Shown one piece after another: positions 9,832 to 46,883 of a stretch of DNA of 64,000 bases (the first letter of the stretch is position 1; the number at the start of each line of letters is the position of its first letter). The notes beneath the pieces were generated by a model that was not told the DNA's origin, made no database searches, and saw only the letters and a list, made by a program, of their open reading frames with translations. The DNA lies in assembly GCF_002563715.1 (NCBI RefSeq), contig NZ_PDJJ01000001.1, positions 2,976,001-3,040,000 on the forward strand, given 5' to 3'. The position numbers and the translations under genes were made by a program. This DNA comes from Isoptericola jiangsuensis. Lineage in GTDB: Bacteria > Actinomycetota > Actinomycetes > Actinomycetales > Cellulomonadaceae.

Positions 9832-11349
9832 ATGATCGACCACACCGTCCGCGTCTACCGTGCCGACGAGCCTCTGCCGCGTGCCGACCAGCTCGCCTGG
9901 AAGATCGCGGAGGTCGCGACCGAGCGCCTGGAGCCGACGCCCGAGGTCACCGACATGGTGATCAACCGCGTCATCGACAACGCGGCGGTGGCGACGGCGT
10001 CGCTCGGGCGGGCACCCATCCTGGCGGCGCGGGCGCAGGCGGAGGCCCACCCGGTATCCCGGGGTGGTTCGGGCGCGACGATCTTCGGGTCGCCGGAGCG
10101 GACGAGCCCCGAGTGGGCGGCGTGGGCCAACGGCGTGGCGGTGCGCGAGCTGGACTACCACGACACCTTCCTCGCGGCGGACTACTCCCACCCCGGGGAC
10201 AACATCCCGCCGATCCTCGCCGTCGCCCAGCACCTGGGCCGGTCGGGGGCCGACCTGCTGCGCGGCATCGTCACCGGCTACGAGATCCAGGTCGACCTCG
10301 TCAAGGGCATCTGCCTGCACGAGCACAAGATCGACCACGTCGCCCACCTCGGGCCGAGCGCCGCCGCCGGCCTCGGCACCCTGCTGGGCCTCGACACCGA
10401 GACGGTGTACCAGGCGGTCGGGCAGGCCCTGCACACCACGACGGCCACCCGGCAGTCCCGCAAGGGCGAGATCTCCACGTGGAAGGCGCACGCCCCGGCG
10501 TTCGCCGGCAAGCTCGCCGTCGAGGCCGTCGACCGGGCCATGCGCGGCCAGACCTCCCCCAGCCCCATCTACGAGGGCACCGACGGGTTCATCGCGTGGA
10601 TGCTGTCCGGCCCCGACGCCCGCTACACCGTGTCCCTGCCGGCGCGCGGCGAGGACCGCACCGCCATCCTGGACACGTACACCAAGGAGCACTCGGCGGA
10701 GTACCAGGCGCAGGCCTGGATCGACCTGGCCCGGCGCCTCGGCCGCGAGCGCCCCGAGCTGCGCGACCCGGCAGCGGTGCGCGCGGTGGTGCTGCACACC
10801 AGCCACCACACCCACTACGTCATCGGGTCCGGCTCCGGGGACCCCCAGAAGTACGACCCGACGGCCTCCCGCGAGACCCTCGACCACTCGATCCCGTACA
10901 TCTTCACCGTCGCGCTGCAGGACGGCGCCTGGGACCACGTGGGCAGCTACGCGCCCGAACGGGCGGGTCGTCCCGACACCGTCGAGCTGTGGCGCAAGGT
11001 CACCACCGCGGAGGACCCGGAGTGGACGCGCCGCTACCACTCGTCCGACCCGGCCGAGAAGTCGTTCGGCGGGCGCGTCGAGATCGAGCTGGCCGACGGC
11101 TCGCGGGTCGTCGAGGAGATCGCCGTCGCCGACGCCCACCCGCTGGGTGCGCGCCCCTTCGGCCGGGAGCAGTACGTCGCCAAGTTCCGCACCCTGGCCG
11201 CCAATGTCCTCGCCGACGACGAGGTCGAGCGGTTCCTCGACGTCGCGCAGCGCCTGCCCGAGCTCACCGCGGACGAGCTGTCCGGCCTCACCGTGACGCC
11301 CGTCGTCGACCCGGCCGCGGCCGCACCCGGCGCCCGCGGGATCTTCTGA
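9832..11349 (+). CDS. prpD: 2-methylcitrate dehydratase (MmgE/PrpD family)
   Basis: Dehydrates 2-methylcitrate to 2-methyl-cis-aconitate in the methylcitrate cycle, which converts propionyl-CoA to pyruvate and succinate. The 505-residue protein has MmgE/PrpD features: [15 protein letters not shown] near residue 48, the active-site stretch [21 protein letters not shown] near 110 and GFIAWM near 255. The ATG at 9832 has GGAGGA five bases upstream; earlier in-frame ATGs lack one. It opens a prpD-prpB-prpC operon, with prpB ten bases downstream. No prp regulator is encoded nearby. Confidence 0.93.
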
Positions 11350-11359
11350 GGAGGACCCG

Positions 11360-12271
11360 GTGCTGTACTCGACCCTGACGCCCGCGGCGAAGCGCGCCGC
11401 GTTCCGCAGCCGTCTCGCCTCCGGGGAGATGCTGCAGCTCCCCGGCGCGTTCAACCCCCTGTCCGCCCGGCTGATCGAGCGCAAGGGGTTCGACGGCGTC
11501 TACGTCTCGGGCGCGGTGGTCGCGGCGGACCTCGGCCTGCCCGACGTCGGCCTGACGACGCTCACCGAGGTCGCCGGCCGGGCCGGGCAGATCGCCCGCA
11601 TGACGGACCTGCCCGTGCTGGTGGACGCCGACACCGGGTTCGGGGAGGCGATGAACGTCGCCCGCACGGTGCAGACGTTCGAGGACGCCGGGGTGGCGGG
11701 CCTGCACGTCGAGGACCAGGTCAACCCGAAGCGGTGCGGCCACCTCGACGGCAAGCAGGTCGTCGACGAGCCGACGGCGCTGCAGCGGATCCGCGCCGCG
11801 GTCACGGCCCGCCGGGACGAGAACCTGCTCGTCATGGCGCGCACCGACGTCCGCGCCGGCACGAGCCTGGAGGCGACGATCGAGCGGGCACAGGCCCTCG
11901 TGGACGCCGGGGCGGACGCCGTCTTCCCGGAGGCCCTGCGCGACCTCGACGAGTTCGCGGCCGTCGCCTCCGCCCTCGACGTGCCCGTCCTCGCGAACAT
12001 GACGGAGTTCGGCAAGTCGGAGCTGTTCACCGCGGCCCGCCTGCGTGACGCCGGCGTCGCGCTCGTCATCCACCCCGTGTCCCTGCTGCGCCTCGCGATG
12101 GGGGCCGCGGACCGCGCTCTCGACGCGCTGCGCACCGAGGGGTCGCTCACCTCGCAGGTCCCGCACATGCAGACCCGCGCCGAGCTGTACGACCTCCTGG
12201 ACTACCCCGCGTACGGCGCGTTCGACGCGGGCGTCTTCGACTTCTCCCTCGAAGGCCACCACCACCAGTGA
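11360..12271 (+). CDS. prpB: 2-methylisocitrate lyase
   Basis: Cleaves 2-methylisocitrate to pyruvate and succinate, the last step of the methylcitrate cycle. The 303-residue protein belongs to the isocitrate lyase/PEP mutase barrel family: VDADTGFGEAMNVART binds metal and KRCGHLDGK (~residues 124-132) carries the catalytic cysteine of the KKCGH type typical of PrpB. The GTG start has GAGGAGG well placed upstream and lies ten bases after prpD, so the genes are cotranscribed. Length matches PrpB rather than the larger isocitrate lyase AceA. Confidence 0.94.
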   Translation: MLYSTLTPAAKRAAFRSRLASGEMLQLPGAFNPLSARLIERKGFDGVYVSGAVVAADLGLPDVGLTTLTEVAGRAGQIARMTDLPVLVDADTGFGEAMNVARTVQTFEDAGVAGLHVEDQVNPKRCGHLDGKQVVDEPTALQRIRAAVTARRDENLLVMARTDVRAGTSLEATIERAQALVDAGADAVFPEALRDLDEFAAVASALDVPVLANMTEFGKSELFTAARLRDAGVALVIHPVSLLRLAMGAADRALDALRTEGSLTSQVPHMQTRAELYDLLDYPAYGAFDAGVFDFSLEGHHHQ

Positions 12272-12341: not shown

Positions 12342-13478
12342 ATGACCGACTCCCCCACCGTCGAGGTCCACCGCGGCCTGGCCGGCGTCGTCGCCGACAC
12401 CACGGCGATCTCCAAGGTCGACCCCGAGTCCAACTCGCTGCTGTACCGCGGCTACCCCGTGCAGGACCTCGCGGCCACGCAGCCGTTCGAGGCCGTCGCG
12501 CACCTGCTGTGGCACGGTGAGCTCCCCACCCCTGCCGAGCTCGCCGCGCTGGAGGCCCAGGAACGGGCCCTGCGGCCGATGGACGAGCGCACCCGGCGCG
12601 TCATCGACGACCTGCCGCTCGACACGCACCCGATGGACGTGGTGCGCACGGCCGTCAGCCAGCTCGGCGGGCTCGACGCCACGCTGCTACGCGACGGCGG
12701 TGTGCTGGACCCCGAGCTCAACCGCGGCCGCGCCGTCCACCTCCTCGCCCAGCTGCCCGGCATCGTCGCGTACGGCCAGCGGCGCCGGCGCGGCCTCGAG
12801 CCCGTCGCCCCTCGCGACGACCTCGACTACGCCCGCAACTTCCTGTGGCAGACGTTCGGCGAGGTGCCCGACGACGTCGTCGTCGACGCGTTCCGCACGT
12901 CGCTCGTGCTGTACGCCGAGCACTCCTTCAACGCCTCCACGTTCACGGCGCGCGTCGTCGCGTCCACCCTGTCGGACGTCTACTCGGCCGTCACCGCCGC
13001 CGTCGGCGCCCTCAAGGGCCCGCTGCACGGCGGCGCGAACGAGGCCGTCATGCACGCGTTCGCCGAGATCGGGTCCGCCGACCGGGCCGAGGCCTGGCTG
13101 GACGAGGCCCTGGCCGCGAAGCGGAAGGTCATGGGGTTCGGGCACCGCGTCTACCGCCACGGCGACTCCCGCGTCCCCGCCATGAAGGCCGCGCTCGACG
13201 CCCTCGTCGCGCACTACGACCGGCCCGACCTGGCGGCGCTCTACGACACCCTGGAGTCGGCGTTCGTCGCCCGCAAGGGCATCTACCCCAACCTCGACTA
13301 CCCCGCGGGCCCGGCCTACCACCTCATGGGCTTCGACACCGAGACGTTCACGCCGATCTTCGTCGCCGCCCGCGTCGTCGGCTGGACGGCGCACGTCGCC
13401 GAGCAGCAGGCGGCGAACTCCCTCATCCGCCCGCTCTCGGCGTACACCGGCCCGGCGCGACGCGACGTCCCGCGCTGA
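12342..13478 (+). CDS. prpC: 2-methylcitrate synthase / citrate synthase family
   Basis: Condenses propionyl-CoA with oxaloacetate to 2-methylcitrate, the entry step of the cycle. The 378-residue protein is a type I citrate synthase fold of the short bacterial kind: GPLHGGANEAVMHAF (~residues 226-240) and MGFGHRVYRHGDSR (~264-277) hold the two catalytic histidines. The ATG has AAAGGAG seven bases upstream. Position after prpD and prpB makes methylcitrate synthase the likely role, though these enzymes often also make citrate. Confidence 0.93.
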   Translation: MTDSPTVEVHRGLAGVVADTTAISKVDPESNSLLYRGYPVQDLAATQPFEAVAHLLWHGELPTPAELAALEAQERALRPMDERTRRVIDDLPLDTHPMDVVRTAVSQLGGLDATLLRDGGVLDPELNRGRAVHLLAQLPGIVAYGQRRRRGLEPVAPRDDLDYARNFLWQTFGEVPDDVVVDAFRTSLVLYAEHSFNASTFTARVVASTLSDVYSAVTAAVGALKGPLHGGANEAVMHAFAEIGSADRAEAWLDEALAAKRKVMGFGHRVYRHGDSRVPAMKAALDALVAHYDRPDLAALYDTLESAFVARKGIYPNLDYPAGPAYHLMGFDTETFTPIFVAARVVGWTAHVAEQQAANSLIRPLSAYTGPARRDVPR

Positions 13479-13576: not shown

Positions 13577-13736
13577 GCGCTGACTCACGCACATCCACGC
13601 TGACTCGCGTGACGGTGCGCTGACTCGCGCGAACCAGCGCTGACTCACGTGACCTTGCGCTGACTCGCGTGGCGGTGCGCTGACTCGCGTGGCGGTGCGC
13701 TGACTCGCGTGGCGGTGCGCTGACTCGCGGGAAGCG
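13577..13736 (+). repeat. Eight tandem 20-bp repeats, core GCGCTGACTCRCG
   Basis: Eight units of exactly 20 bp begin at 13577, 13597, 13617, 13637, 13657, 13677, 13697 and 13717. Each opens with GCGCTGACTC or ACGCTGACTC, then G/A-C-G and about six variable bases; the later copies are identical (tail GTGGCGGT). The array fills the gap between the convergent ends of prpC and the CYTH gene, so it is not a promoter of either. The same core occurs at 46013-46120. No spacers of unique sequence are present, so it is not a CRISPR array. Function unknown. Confidence 0.9.
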
Positions 13737-13754
13737 GGTCGTGAGCCGACGGAG

Positions 13755-13859
13755 CCGGGTGGTGGGGGTGCGGGGCGCGCGGCTGGCCGGGCCTGGCGGG
13801 AGGCCGCGAGGAACGAGCGGCCGGATGGAAGCCGCGCGCCACGCACCCCCACCACCCGG
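13755..13859. repeat. 30-bp inverted repeat with nested hairpin
   Basis: The arms 13755-13784 and 13830-13859 are complementary at 29 of 30 positions. The 45-base loop between them can itself fold (GGCCGC/GCGGCC). It directly follows the 20-bp repeat array and precedes the CYTH gene end. It could act as a bidirectional terminator for the convergent genes, but the arms are far longer than terminators need, and it may be a structured RNA or a mobile repeat. Confidence 0.8.
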
Positions 13860-13860
13860 C

Positions 13861-13910
13861 GACCCGACCCAACCCGACAAGACCCGACGGGACCCGACGA
13901 GACCCGCCCC
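13861..13910 (+). repeat. Five 10-bp units of the GACCCGACNN type
   Basis: The 50 bases before the CYTH stop codon divide into five 10-bp units (GACCCGACCC, AACCCGACAA, GACCCGACGG, GACCCGACGA, GACCCGCCCC). The period is one helical turn. It closes the repeat island that starts at 13577. Confidence 0.75.
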
Positions 13911-14539
13911 TAGGTGGCGTCGATGGAGGTGTTCTCGCCGAAGTCCTCGCGGAACCGCGGGCCGGTACGGACGAGCTCCTGGGCGTACTCCGCGGCCCAC
14001 TCGGCGTAGGGCTGCACGGCGAGGGACTCGTTGGAGAACCGGCGGTCGTCGGTGATCTCGGTGACGCAGAAGTCGGGGATCTGGAGTCCGGTGACGGGGC
14101 CGGAGCGTTCGCACTCGGCGACGACGAGGGGGTGGTTGGCGCCGCCGAAGACGTCGAGGGACCAGCCGTCGGCGCCGATCCAGGCGGCGTAGCGGGTCTT
14201 GACGACGCGGGCGCCGCCGCGGCGGACGAGCTCGAGCGCGACGAGGGGGTCGAGCTCGCGCTCGGCCTCGTAGCGGGTGCCGCCGGCGGAGGGGCCCTTG
14301 ACGGTGACGGCGGCGAAGTCGACGCGGTCGCGGACGGCGTCGAGGACGTCGGCGGGGTCGCTCTGCGCGTCGAGGCGTCCGTCCACCCCGCCGGCCTGGA
14401 CGCGGACGCGGAGCGCGTACCCGCCGTCGGACAGGAAGTAGGACTGGACGATGAGCGACGGCGCGTCACGGAGCGCGTCGGGGAGGGCGCGGACGAGGAA
14501 GCGCCGTTCGAACTCGAAGTCGGTGTACGCGGTCGACAT
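13910..14539 (-). CDS. CYTH-domain protein
   Basis: A 209-residue protein of the triphosphate tunnel metalloenzyme superfamily, whose members hydrolyse triphosphates such as inorganic tripolyphosphate or thiamine triphosphate, or make cAMP. The hallmark ExExK-type motif appears at the N terminus as E9-F-E11-R-R13. Strands with alternating charged residues follow (ALRVRVQ, AAVTVKG, RYEAERELD, ARVVKTRYAAW). Substrate cannot be told from sequence. There is no ribosome site; TAGTGT ends seven bases before the ATG, suggesting a leaderless mRNA. The vanY-type gene on the same strand ends 47 bases upstream. Confidence 0.75.
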   Translation of the reverse strand: MSTAYTDFEFERRFLVRALPDALRDAPSLIVQSYFLSDGGYALRVRVQAGGVDGRLDAQSDPADVLDAVRDRVDFAAVTVKGPSAGGTRYEAERELDPLVALELVRRGGARVVKTRYAAWIGADGWSLDVFGGANHPLVVAECERSGPVTGLQIPDFCVTEITDDRRFSNESLAVQPYAEWAAEYAQELVRTGPRFREDFGENTSIDAT

Positions 14540-46012: not shown

Positions 46013-46126
46013 CGCGACTCAGCGCCGGCCCCCGCGACTCAGCACACCCTCCGCCGAGTCAGCGCAGCGTCACGCGAGTCAGCGCACGCTCCGCCGAGCC
46101 GCGGGAGGCTGCGCTGAGTCGCGGGG
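46013..46126 (+). repeat. Second 20-bp-period repeat array, core GASTCAGC
   Basis: Five to six units of exactly 20 bp: GACTCAGCGC, GACTCAGCAC, GAGTCAGCGC, GAGTCAGCGC, GAGCCGCGGG and a GAGTCGCGGG end, beginning at 46016, 46036, 46056, 46076, 46096 and 46116. GAGTCAGCGC is the reverse complement of the core GCGCTGACTC at 13577-13736, so both arrays share one motif on opposite strands. It lies between hpf and the glycosylase gene, some 95-200 bases upstream of the latter's start. Together with the adjoining inverted repeat it fills the 309-base gap. Confidence 0.85.
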
Positions 46127-46135
46127 ACGGCACGA

Positions 46136-46199
46136 CGCCGGGCCCCGTCCCGACGGGCCGGCACGGGAGGTGCGCGGCGGGTCGGGACGGGGCCCGGCG
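46136..46199 (-). terminator. hpf terminator / 19-bp perfect inverted repeat
   Basis: Arms 46136-46154 and 46181-46199 are perfectly complementary over 19 bp (CGCCGGGCCCCGTCCCGAC and complement), with a 26-base loop that can fold further. It lies 30 bases beyond the hpf stop. The long loop is unlike a simple terminator, and like the first repeat island it adjoins a 20-bp array. Confidence 0.65.
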
Positions 46200-46229: not shown

Positions 46230-46883
46230 CTACGTCAGCTCGGTCACCGGTGCGGTGGCGCTGCACGTGGTGTCCAGCTCGATGACGCCGTACGTCCAGC
46301 CGCGACGCCGGTAGACGGCGGCGGGCCGGGCGGACTCCTTGTCGATGTAGAGGAAGAAGTCGTGGCCGACGAGCTCCATGCGCTCGACCGCCTCGTCCGT
46401 CGTCATCGGCTCGCCCCGGTGGAGCTTCTGCCGGATGAGGACGGGTGAGTCGCCGAGCTGGTGCTCGACGGCGTCGCCGGGTTCGCTGAGGGTCGCCGGT
46501 TCGGGTTCCGGCTGCGCCTCGGCGCTGCCGTCGTACGGACGGACGTCGACGGCGGGGACGACGTCCTCACCTCGACGGCGGTGGTCCTTGCGGCGGTCAC
46601 GGGAGCGGCGGAGCCGCTCGTTCAGCTTGTCCAGGGCGAGGTCCAGCGCGCCGAACCGGTCGTCCGCGGCCGCTTCGGCGCGGATCACGGGTCCCTTCGA
46701 CCGGACGGTCAGCTCCACCCGTTCGCTCACGTTCGCGAGCTTCGGGTTCTTCTCGTGCGTGACCTCGACGTCCACGCGGCGCGCGTGCGGCGCGAGCTGG
46801 GTGACCTTGGCGAGCTTGTCCTCGACGTGGCGACGGAACCTGTCCGTCACCTCCGTGTGCCTGCCGACGACGGCGATCTCCAT
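46230..46883 (-). CDS. hpf: Ribosome hibernation promoting factor, long form
   Basis: A 217-residue HPF that binds the 30S decoding region and dimerises ribosomes into 100S particles in stationary phase or stress. The N-terminal domain (MEIAVVGRHTEVTDRFRRHV to LNERLRRSRDRRK, ~1-105) is the YfiA-type fold; the C-terminal dimerisation domain (~155-205; VLIRQKLHRGEPMTTDEAVE, HDFFLYIDKESARPAAVYRR) marks the long type. The ATG has GGAG seven bases upstream. It lies between comF and secA, the same neighbours as in mycobacteria. Confidence 0.95.
   Translation of the reverse strand: MEIAVVGRHTEVTDRFRRHVEDKLAKVTQLAPHARRVDVEVTHEKNPKLANVSERVELTVRSKGPVIRAEAAADDRFGALDLALDKLNERLRRSRDRRKDHRRRGEDVVPAVDVRPYDGSAEAQPEPEPATLSEPGDAVEHQLGDSPVLIRQKLHRGEPMTTDEAVERMELVGHDFFLYIDKESARPAAVYRRRGWTYGVIELDTTCSATAPVTELT

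Follow-up and report, generated by a model that had tools for sequence, protein, structure and literature searches.

The eight-unit array in the window (the whole stretch of DNA analysed, 64,000 nucleotides long) belongs to a dispersed family of intergenic 20-base tandem rows that recurs in related genomes with the core re-spelled. Each 8-base core is a putative binding site of one sequence-specific DNA-binding protein, a reading that rests on sequence comparison and is preferred tentatively, at a probability of roughly 0.43. Dispersed bacterial repeats are usually put down to a transposase or to a known binding protein, and neither was found here for the 20-base rows. The step and many of the positions persist through the re-spelling of whole genomes, which makes the family a natural experiment on the rewriting of a genome-wide DNA code; if the protein is found, it would represent a new chromosome-wide DNA-binding system in Actinobacteria. 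The species dialects, the conservation of positions and the arrays that stand at gene ends and supply stop codons are beyond the reach of the sequence-only reading that first described the array from this single window.

The repeat family in its home genome

The window covers bases 2976001-3040000 of G000, a genome in a single contig of 4,041,252 bases. The array lies at 13577-13736 on the plus strand and consists of eight units, each with a core GCGCTGACTCRCG and a 7-base tail. The units start at 13577, 13597 and so on to 13717, and the step is always exactly 20 bases. Seven units match GCGCTGACTCRCG without mismatch, and unit 2 has one mismatch (it starts with A). Tandem Repeats Finder gave 13598-13729 with a period of 20, 6.6 copies, 87% matches and 0% indels, which bears out the earlier description of eight 20-bp units without slippage. 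The period had also been described as exactly two helical turns; the exact step of 20 bases stands, but two turns of B-DNA take about 21 bp and 20 bp falls slightly short of them.

The array is located between two convergent genes, as had been stated, with gene ends at 13478 (plus) and 13910 (minus). Upstream is a citrate synthase family gene (12342-13478, plus), whose neighbours are genes of the PEP-mutase/ICL type (11360-12271) and of the MmgE/PrpD family (9832-11349). The convergent gene (13910-14539, minus) encodes 209 amino acids and had no Pfam match at 1e-5; CYTH is a tentative label for it. A long hairpin at 13754-13860 separates it from the array; the RNA fold of 13737-13880 reaches -105.6 kcal/mol (z -7.49 against shuffles), and the hairpin is likely a two-way transcription terminator. 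A known RNA family for the array was dropped as a candidate: at gathering scores the sole Rfam match in the window is a tRNA, and none falls on the array. The gene that follows citrate synthase is convergent in G000, G136, G134 and others, and co-directional in L116-L118, L122, L124, L127, L128 and L131.

The earlier observation that the core recurs 32 kb away at the same period is real. A second, degenerate array at 46013-46085 (minus) has four units at 20-base spacing, starting at 46013, 46033, 46053 and 46073 with 1, 2, 2 and 0 mismatches, behind an S30EA (ribosome-hibernation type) gene at 46230-46883 (minus). A lone opposed unit, GCGCTGAGTCGCG (46111-46123, plus), adjoins it, followed by an inverted repeat at 46136-46199 (arms read by eye) that is likely a terminator. 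The G134 ortholog of the S30EA-type gene is likewise followed by an array, in the spelling CTAC. The loose 13-mer with up to two mismatches is by itself not above chance in the window (18 found, 25.8 expected); what is beyond chance is the count of exact copies and the 20-base register.

Genome-wide, the exact 12-mer CGCTGACTCGCG occurs 280 times in G000 (139 forward, 141 reverse), and the control read backwards occurs 0 + 1 times. The DNA of G000 examined amounts to 1.42 Mb, made up of a nearly contiguous 2.976-4.04 Mb, stretches around matches and the first 20 kb. It holds 256 of the 280 copies in 74 clusters (all 139 forward and 117 of the 141 reverse copies, the remaining 24 being reverse-strand), and family shares over the full 1.42 Mb are not those of a random sample, because the part outside 2.976-4.04 Mb was picked for matches. 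Arrays were built by extending each exact CGCTGASTCGCG in 20-base steps with at most three mismatches. This yielded 122 arrays with 642 units; 119 arrays have at least two units and three are single units. The unit in G000 is GCGCTGASTCGCG (S = C in 73%, G in 26%) followed by a weak tail near GGAACCT. Its core is the 8-base CTGASTCG, in general form CTNNSTCG.

Core and tail were compared in 101 units that stand in register, have exact 13-mers to either side and themselves depart from the 13-mer by one mismatch or more. The 8-base core, with S free, is kept in 741 of 808 letters (92%; 640 of 707 for the seven fixed letters). Agreement is 1094 of 1313 letters over the whole 13-letter motif, and 403 of 707 (57%) for the seven tail letters, each scored against its own majority. 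Successive same-strand spacings of at most 110 bp (n=297) are multiples of 20 in 284 cases, 10 or 30 in five and off register in eight. The units are not palindromic. A candidate stem of 3 bp flanking the core survives in 41 of the 101 units, and in 52 of 54 units with an altered right side the left side is unaltered, so no unit hairpin is conserved. Since the core outlasts the tail and the period is almost free of indels, recognition of each unit is favoured over simple microsatellite growth. The sequence-only reading had proposed a row of protein-binding sites in place of such growth; the kept core and the near indel-free period agree with that, while the protein is still putative and a selfish satellite, discussed below, is a further candidate.

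Plain local expansion by replication slippage, functionless, is extremely improbable. Some adjacent units are identical, as are the tails of window units 5-7, which is as slippage would have it; it is contradicted by recurrence genome-wide and across species, with 280 copies against one in the control and a related core with the same period in other genera, and by a core that outlasts its tail. Absence of the motif elsewhere had been named as the sign of a chance expansion; instead there are 280 cores in G000 and 321 in its sister G136, and the motif is re-spelled in most of the genus.

Two irregular places were seen on the chromosome. At G000:C1 33640-33740 the period falls from 20 to 10 (repeats of CGCTGAGTCG), a stretch which suggests that the 20-base unit may be two 10-base halves. 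At G000:C1 798640-798780 opposed rows join in a 38-base palindrome, tails included (by eye).

Placement at gene ends and along the chromosome

Genes were called with a simple codon-usage finder, which left one stretch of 8.3 kb without any call. Among the exact C- and G-variant cores in the G000 DNA examined (n=344), 343 lie outside called genes, six of these in the 8.3-kb stretch, and one lies in the last codons of a gene. The cores are spread over 77 intergenic regions. Convergent, tandem and divergent gaps hold 190, 131 and 22 cores against 33, 81 and 45 kb of intergenic DNA, i.e., 190 of 343 cores fall in 33 of 159 kb, an excess in convergent gaps. The 22 of 343 in divergent gaps agree with the earlier remark that the window array is not a promoter, and a promoter array was set aside; the arrays that do stand in divergent gaps did not lead to a regulator. 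Opposed rows are frequent in convergent gaps, with '<>' eight times and '><' four times in G000, and 13 times and never in the congener G134. The G134 sample comprises 45 places that cover all 86 listed matches, with 70 arrays of at least three units.

In tandem gaps the rows run antisense in 23 cases and sense in 17 (G000), or 15 and 10 (G134), and row direction there is not significantly tied to transcription (pooled P 0.21). Behind genes the picture is more one-sided: 111 genes of G000 have an array within 600 bp of their end, with the nearest row antisense in 71 and sense in 40 (P 0.004), and in G134 the nearest row is antisense in 58 of 74 such genes (P 1e-6). Because the nearest row at gene ends is mostly antisense, row direction is not fully independent of the genes. 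In 13 of the 71 antisense-side genes of G000 the row begins 0-1 bp past the stop codon. In nine of the 40 sense-side genes the TGA stop is the TGA of a unit (the first unit in eight, the second in one). The G134 core reads TAG on the opposite strand, and 22 of the 58 antisense-side genes of G134 stop at the TAG of a unit (first unit 15, second unit 7). The arrays therefore extend into gene ends and provide stop codons, the TGA or TAG of the unit serving as that of the gene.

A 3'-end RNA or termination element, i.e., rows that halt transcription or protect messages chiefly between convergent genes, would account for the excess in convergent gaps and for rows that abut stop codons, and such a role would be compatible with the antisense excess at gene ends. 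The lack of a significant strand preference in tandem gaps, a unit hairpin that is not kept and the lack of an Rfam match at the window array speak against it. Hairpins with arms of at least 12 occur in 13 of 18 convergent gaps with arrays and in 55 of 72 without (2.976-4.04 Mb), and with hairpins equally common in both, arrays as a replacement for terminator hairpins were dropped. On this evidence a 3'-end element is quite unlikely, even with the hairpins of the next kind counted in its favour. These form a second dispersed element in G000, a hairpin whose head GAAGTGGAGGGCCCCCTGGGGCCCGTGAACGCG is conserved and whose outer stem varies between sites yet looks complementary; 25 were found in the DNA examined, 19 of them within 400 bp of an array. 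They often sit between opposed rows, for example as spacers between opposed arrays at G000:C1 33900-34010, 3325630-3325760 and 3428840-3428990.

On the chromosome scale, dnaA is located at 56.5 kb in G000 and the terminus was assumed to lie opposite. Forward-strand clusters per 253-kb bin away from dnaA number 8, 13, 11, 10, 6, 4, 3 and 0, so that 42 of 55 are in the dnaA-proximal half, a count complete for that strand. G139 has 26 of 36 loci in the dnaA half among 100 of 104 matches listed, and in G136, among 100 of 139 matches listed, the 1.26 Mb near dnaA hold 25 loci and the 1.71 Mb distant from dnaA hold 13. Copies thin out with distance from the origin in these three species, by raw locus counts and not per available convergent gap. 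The sequence-only reading had proposed to map copy number, strand and origin distance; the outcome is 280 copies, 139 and 141 by strand, fewer away from dnaA.

Spelling and position in related genomes

Among 221 genomes of the family, the exact G000 12-mer is found 181 + 140 times in the sister G136, 12 times in G159 and 0-6 times in the others; 105 genomes have at least one. With a pair pattern that leaves the middle bases free, the same 221 genomes show 20-base rows as GCGCTACCTCG in G138, G141, G148, G149 and G150, and a mix of CTATCTCG, CTAACTCG and CTAGCTCG in G215, a member of another genus. Elsewhere the pattern gave one lone match in G026, and the reversed control gave one match in the 221 genomes.

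The generic triple CTNNSTCG at 20-base steps occurs in 14 of the 18 genomes of the genus, from four matches in G144 to 225 in G150, and zero times in G135, G140, G142 and G147. Since four of 18 congeners are without a match and G144 has four, the array system is dispensable. The reversed triple matches 127 + 146 times in G000 and 97 + 60 times in G136, where it is invalid as a control because the reversed pattern also fits their arrays; it gave 0-2 matches in the other 16 genus genomes and 16 + 7 in G215. Beyond the genus, the triple is found among the 221 family genomes in eight of the 17 of g6 (1-6 each, with the same period and mostly as CTACSTCG), in G173 (15), G215 (123) and G159 (4), and once each in five further genomes. 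In an order-wide draw of 396 genomes, six outside the family match, five of them with 1-2 matches and G286 with seven from one 10-base tandem. A collection of named genomes, which may omit the window's own, gave two matches in Isoptericola sediminis and six lone ones in other organisms. G134 aligns with the I. sediminis locus at 79-84%, the same site having CTGA rows in I. sediminis and CTAC rows in G134; the genus of these genomes is therefore probably Isoptericola.

In all 14 genus genomes sampled, at 4-357 units per genome, a single middle pair is dominant. It is GA in 343 of 357 units of G000 and AC in 185 of 194 of G134; the samples of the other genus genomes are small (4-47 units), and that of G146 consists of ten listed matches and six units from a single locus. 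The spellings CTGA and CTAC each dominate whole genomes, with CTACSTCG in most relatives that have arrays. A tree of citrate synthase places G000 and G136 (GA) with G141 and G145 (AC) and G140 (no matches), and makes G146 (GA) the sister of G139 (AC). The GA spelling thus stands on two separate branches of this one-gene tree, as G000/G136 and G146 group with different AC genomes.

Positions were compared between G134 and G000 through orthologs of at least 55% identity, which 43 of the 74 array genes of G134 have in the G000 DNA examined. Of 28 with the ortholog in 2.976-4.04 Mb, 17 have an array there as well, in a different spelling. In that stretch an array lies behind 55 of 872 genes (6%), or 37 of 182 (20%) at convergent gaps of at least 40 bp, and the shared positions exceed both baselines (binomial 4e-14 and 4e-6). 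Fifteen further orthologs, 12 of them with an array, were kept out of the count because their stretches had been chosen for matches. For 29 genes with arrays in both genomes, the nearest row is antisense in both for 19. With the sister G136 (400 kb), the array is common to both genomes at 13 of 16 array genes, and at 13 of 20 in the reverse direction. The window's own site is labile between species: in G136 the two stop codons are 13 bp apart with no array between them, as against 431 bp in G000, and at the citrate synthase gene a CTAC row is found in G148 and G149 and one unit in G138. At G136:C1 3518994-3519323, a gap of 329 bp holds five '<' units, a hairpin and four '>' units; the gap in G000 is about 30 bp.

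This turnover, together with dispensability and the invasion of gene ends, fits a selfish REP-like satellite, in which a core-recognising enzyme would copy the unit into tolerated gaps behind genes and re-homogenisation in each species would give the dialects. It is the main rival to binding sites, a possible account although a doubtful one. REPs are described as extragenic and close to 3' ends (PMC3733652), arrays can be present in one sister and absent in the other, opposed arrays round a hairpin form a composite found in one sister alone, triple matches vary from 0 to 225 per genome within the genus, and arrays supply the stop codons mentioned above. Points on the other side are the non-palindromic units, positions shared across dialects above baseline, and a kept core with a decayed tail in the same old array, which copying leaves unexplained unless it acts on single cores. 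Moreover, the REP transposase domain Y1_Tnp (PF01797) had no match at E 0.001 in any of the 18 genus genomes, with a positive control in five of 14, and identity with REP/RAYT was dropped.

Proposed docking sites and known systems

Docking of a putative protein with shifting specificity is favoured because the core outlasts the tail, the step is kept across genera, no unit hairpin is conserved and positions often stay while the spelling changes. The thinning of copies away from dnaA and the lack of a significant strand preference in tandem gaps count in its favour too. One and the same protein would bind the cores throughout, and the 20-base step would let its copies sit adjacent on double-stranded DNA, each row forming a compact protein-DNA platform behind a gene end. 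Changes of spelling would track changes in the specificity of the protein, and the platform may serve chromosome organisation or division timing, not the neighbouring genes. Against binding sites, four of 18 congeners do without arrays, sites come and go, arrays reach gene ends as an invading repeat does, the antisense excess there ties row direction in part to the genes, and G215 mixes several spellings. It is unlikely that the rows go further and form a chromosomal address system throughout this family of Actinobacteria, with origin-biased docking rows for a putative division- or segregation-marking protein, as with Noc or SlmA, and with a code that changed across whole genomes at least twice inside a single genus, many addresses being kept.

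No known system compared fits in all features tested, as far as the relevant passages of PMC3733652, PMC3630211, PMC4331003, PMC4117426 and PMC9426499 describe them. The open-licence part of the literature yielded nothing on such repeats in Isoptericola or on 20-bp dialect arrays. REPs combine a GTAG or CGTC tag with an adjacent palindromic stem of 5-13 bp, and those of the CGTC type seem to lack a RAYT transposase too (PMC3733652). Like REPs as described there, the 20-base rows are short, extragenic, often between convergent genes and at most 20 bp from gene ends, and often in opposed pairs; 343 of 344 cores are extragenic, 111 genes have an array within 600 bp behind them, and CTAC reads GTAG on the opposite strand. 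Unlike REPs, they have non-palindromic units (best stem 3 bp) in fixed 20-base tandem rows, and GTAG is present in the CTAC spelling alone, not in CTGA species; unlike REPs of the GTAG type, they occur in genomes without a match to the RAYT transposase.

The DNA uptake sequences (DUS) of Neisseriaceae resemble the rows in having dialects. These fill a genome and share a common core; every dialect except one contains a stop codon, and inverted pairs stand between genes by terminators (PMC3630211). The 20-base rows likewise share the core CTNNSTCG with one pair dominant in each of 14 genus genomes, G215 being mixed. An uptake or recombination signal of this kind, in which a binding protein favours DNA in the local dialect, with biased recombination spreading that dialect and changing its spelling, would best explain the in-place re-spelling of whole genomes. 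It is nevertheless very unlikely: DUS are also common within genes, whereas one of 344 20-base cores is genic, and the rows are tandem at 20 bp, a word ('tandem') that does not appear in the main text of PMC3630211.

Further parallels are sites that known proteins bind on chromosomes or plasmids. Noc sites are absent from the terminus region and SlmA sites are more abundant near the origin (PMC4331003, PMC4117426). The 20-base rows resemble both as many dispersed chromosomal sites that are depleted away from the origin (G000 42 of 55; G139 26 of 36 among the loci listed), and differ from Noc sites, described as discrete palindromes with a known protein, in being tandem and non-palindromic with a putative protein. 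The ParR protein of pSK41 binds 20-bp repeats, and plasmid parC sites bound by ParR are, like the rows, direct repeats at a step of 10 or 20 bp that a small protein can tile (PMC9426499). parC, however, is one locus by parM on a plasmid, and the cores here are in 77 chromosomal gaps of the DNA examined. The STRR heptamer repeats of cyanobacteria are intergenic short tandem repeats spread through the genome as well; by description alone, they are alike in this and set apart by another lineage and another period.

An origin from plasmids or viruses was set aside as far as the plasmid collection and the viral contigs go. The window array had no match in the plasmid collection. In the viral contigs, the CTGASTCG triple had no match and the CTACSTCG triple matched two stretches, both short 10-base tandems and chance-like. 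These are L260 2510-2560 and L261 10750-10800, where CGAGGTAG stands five times in steps of 10 bases, probably by chance.
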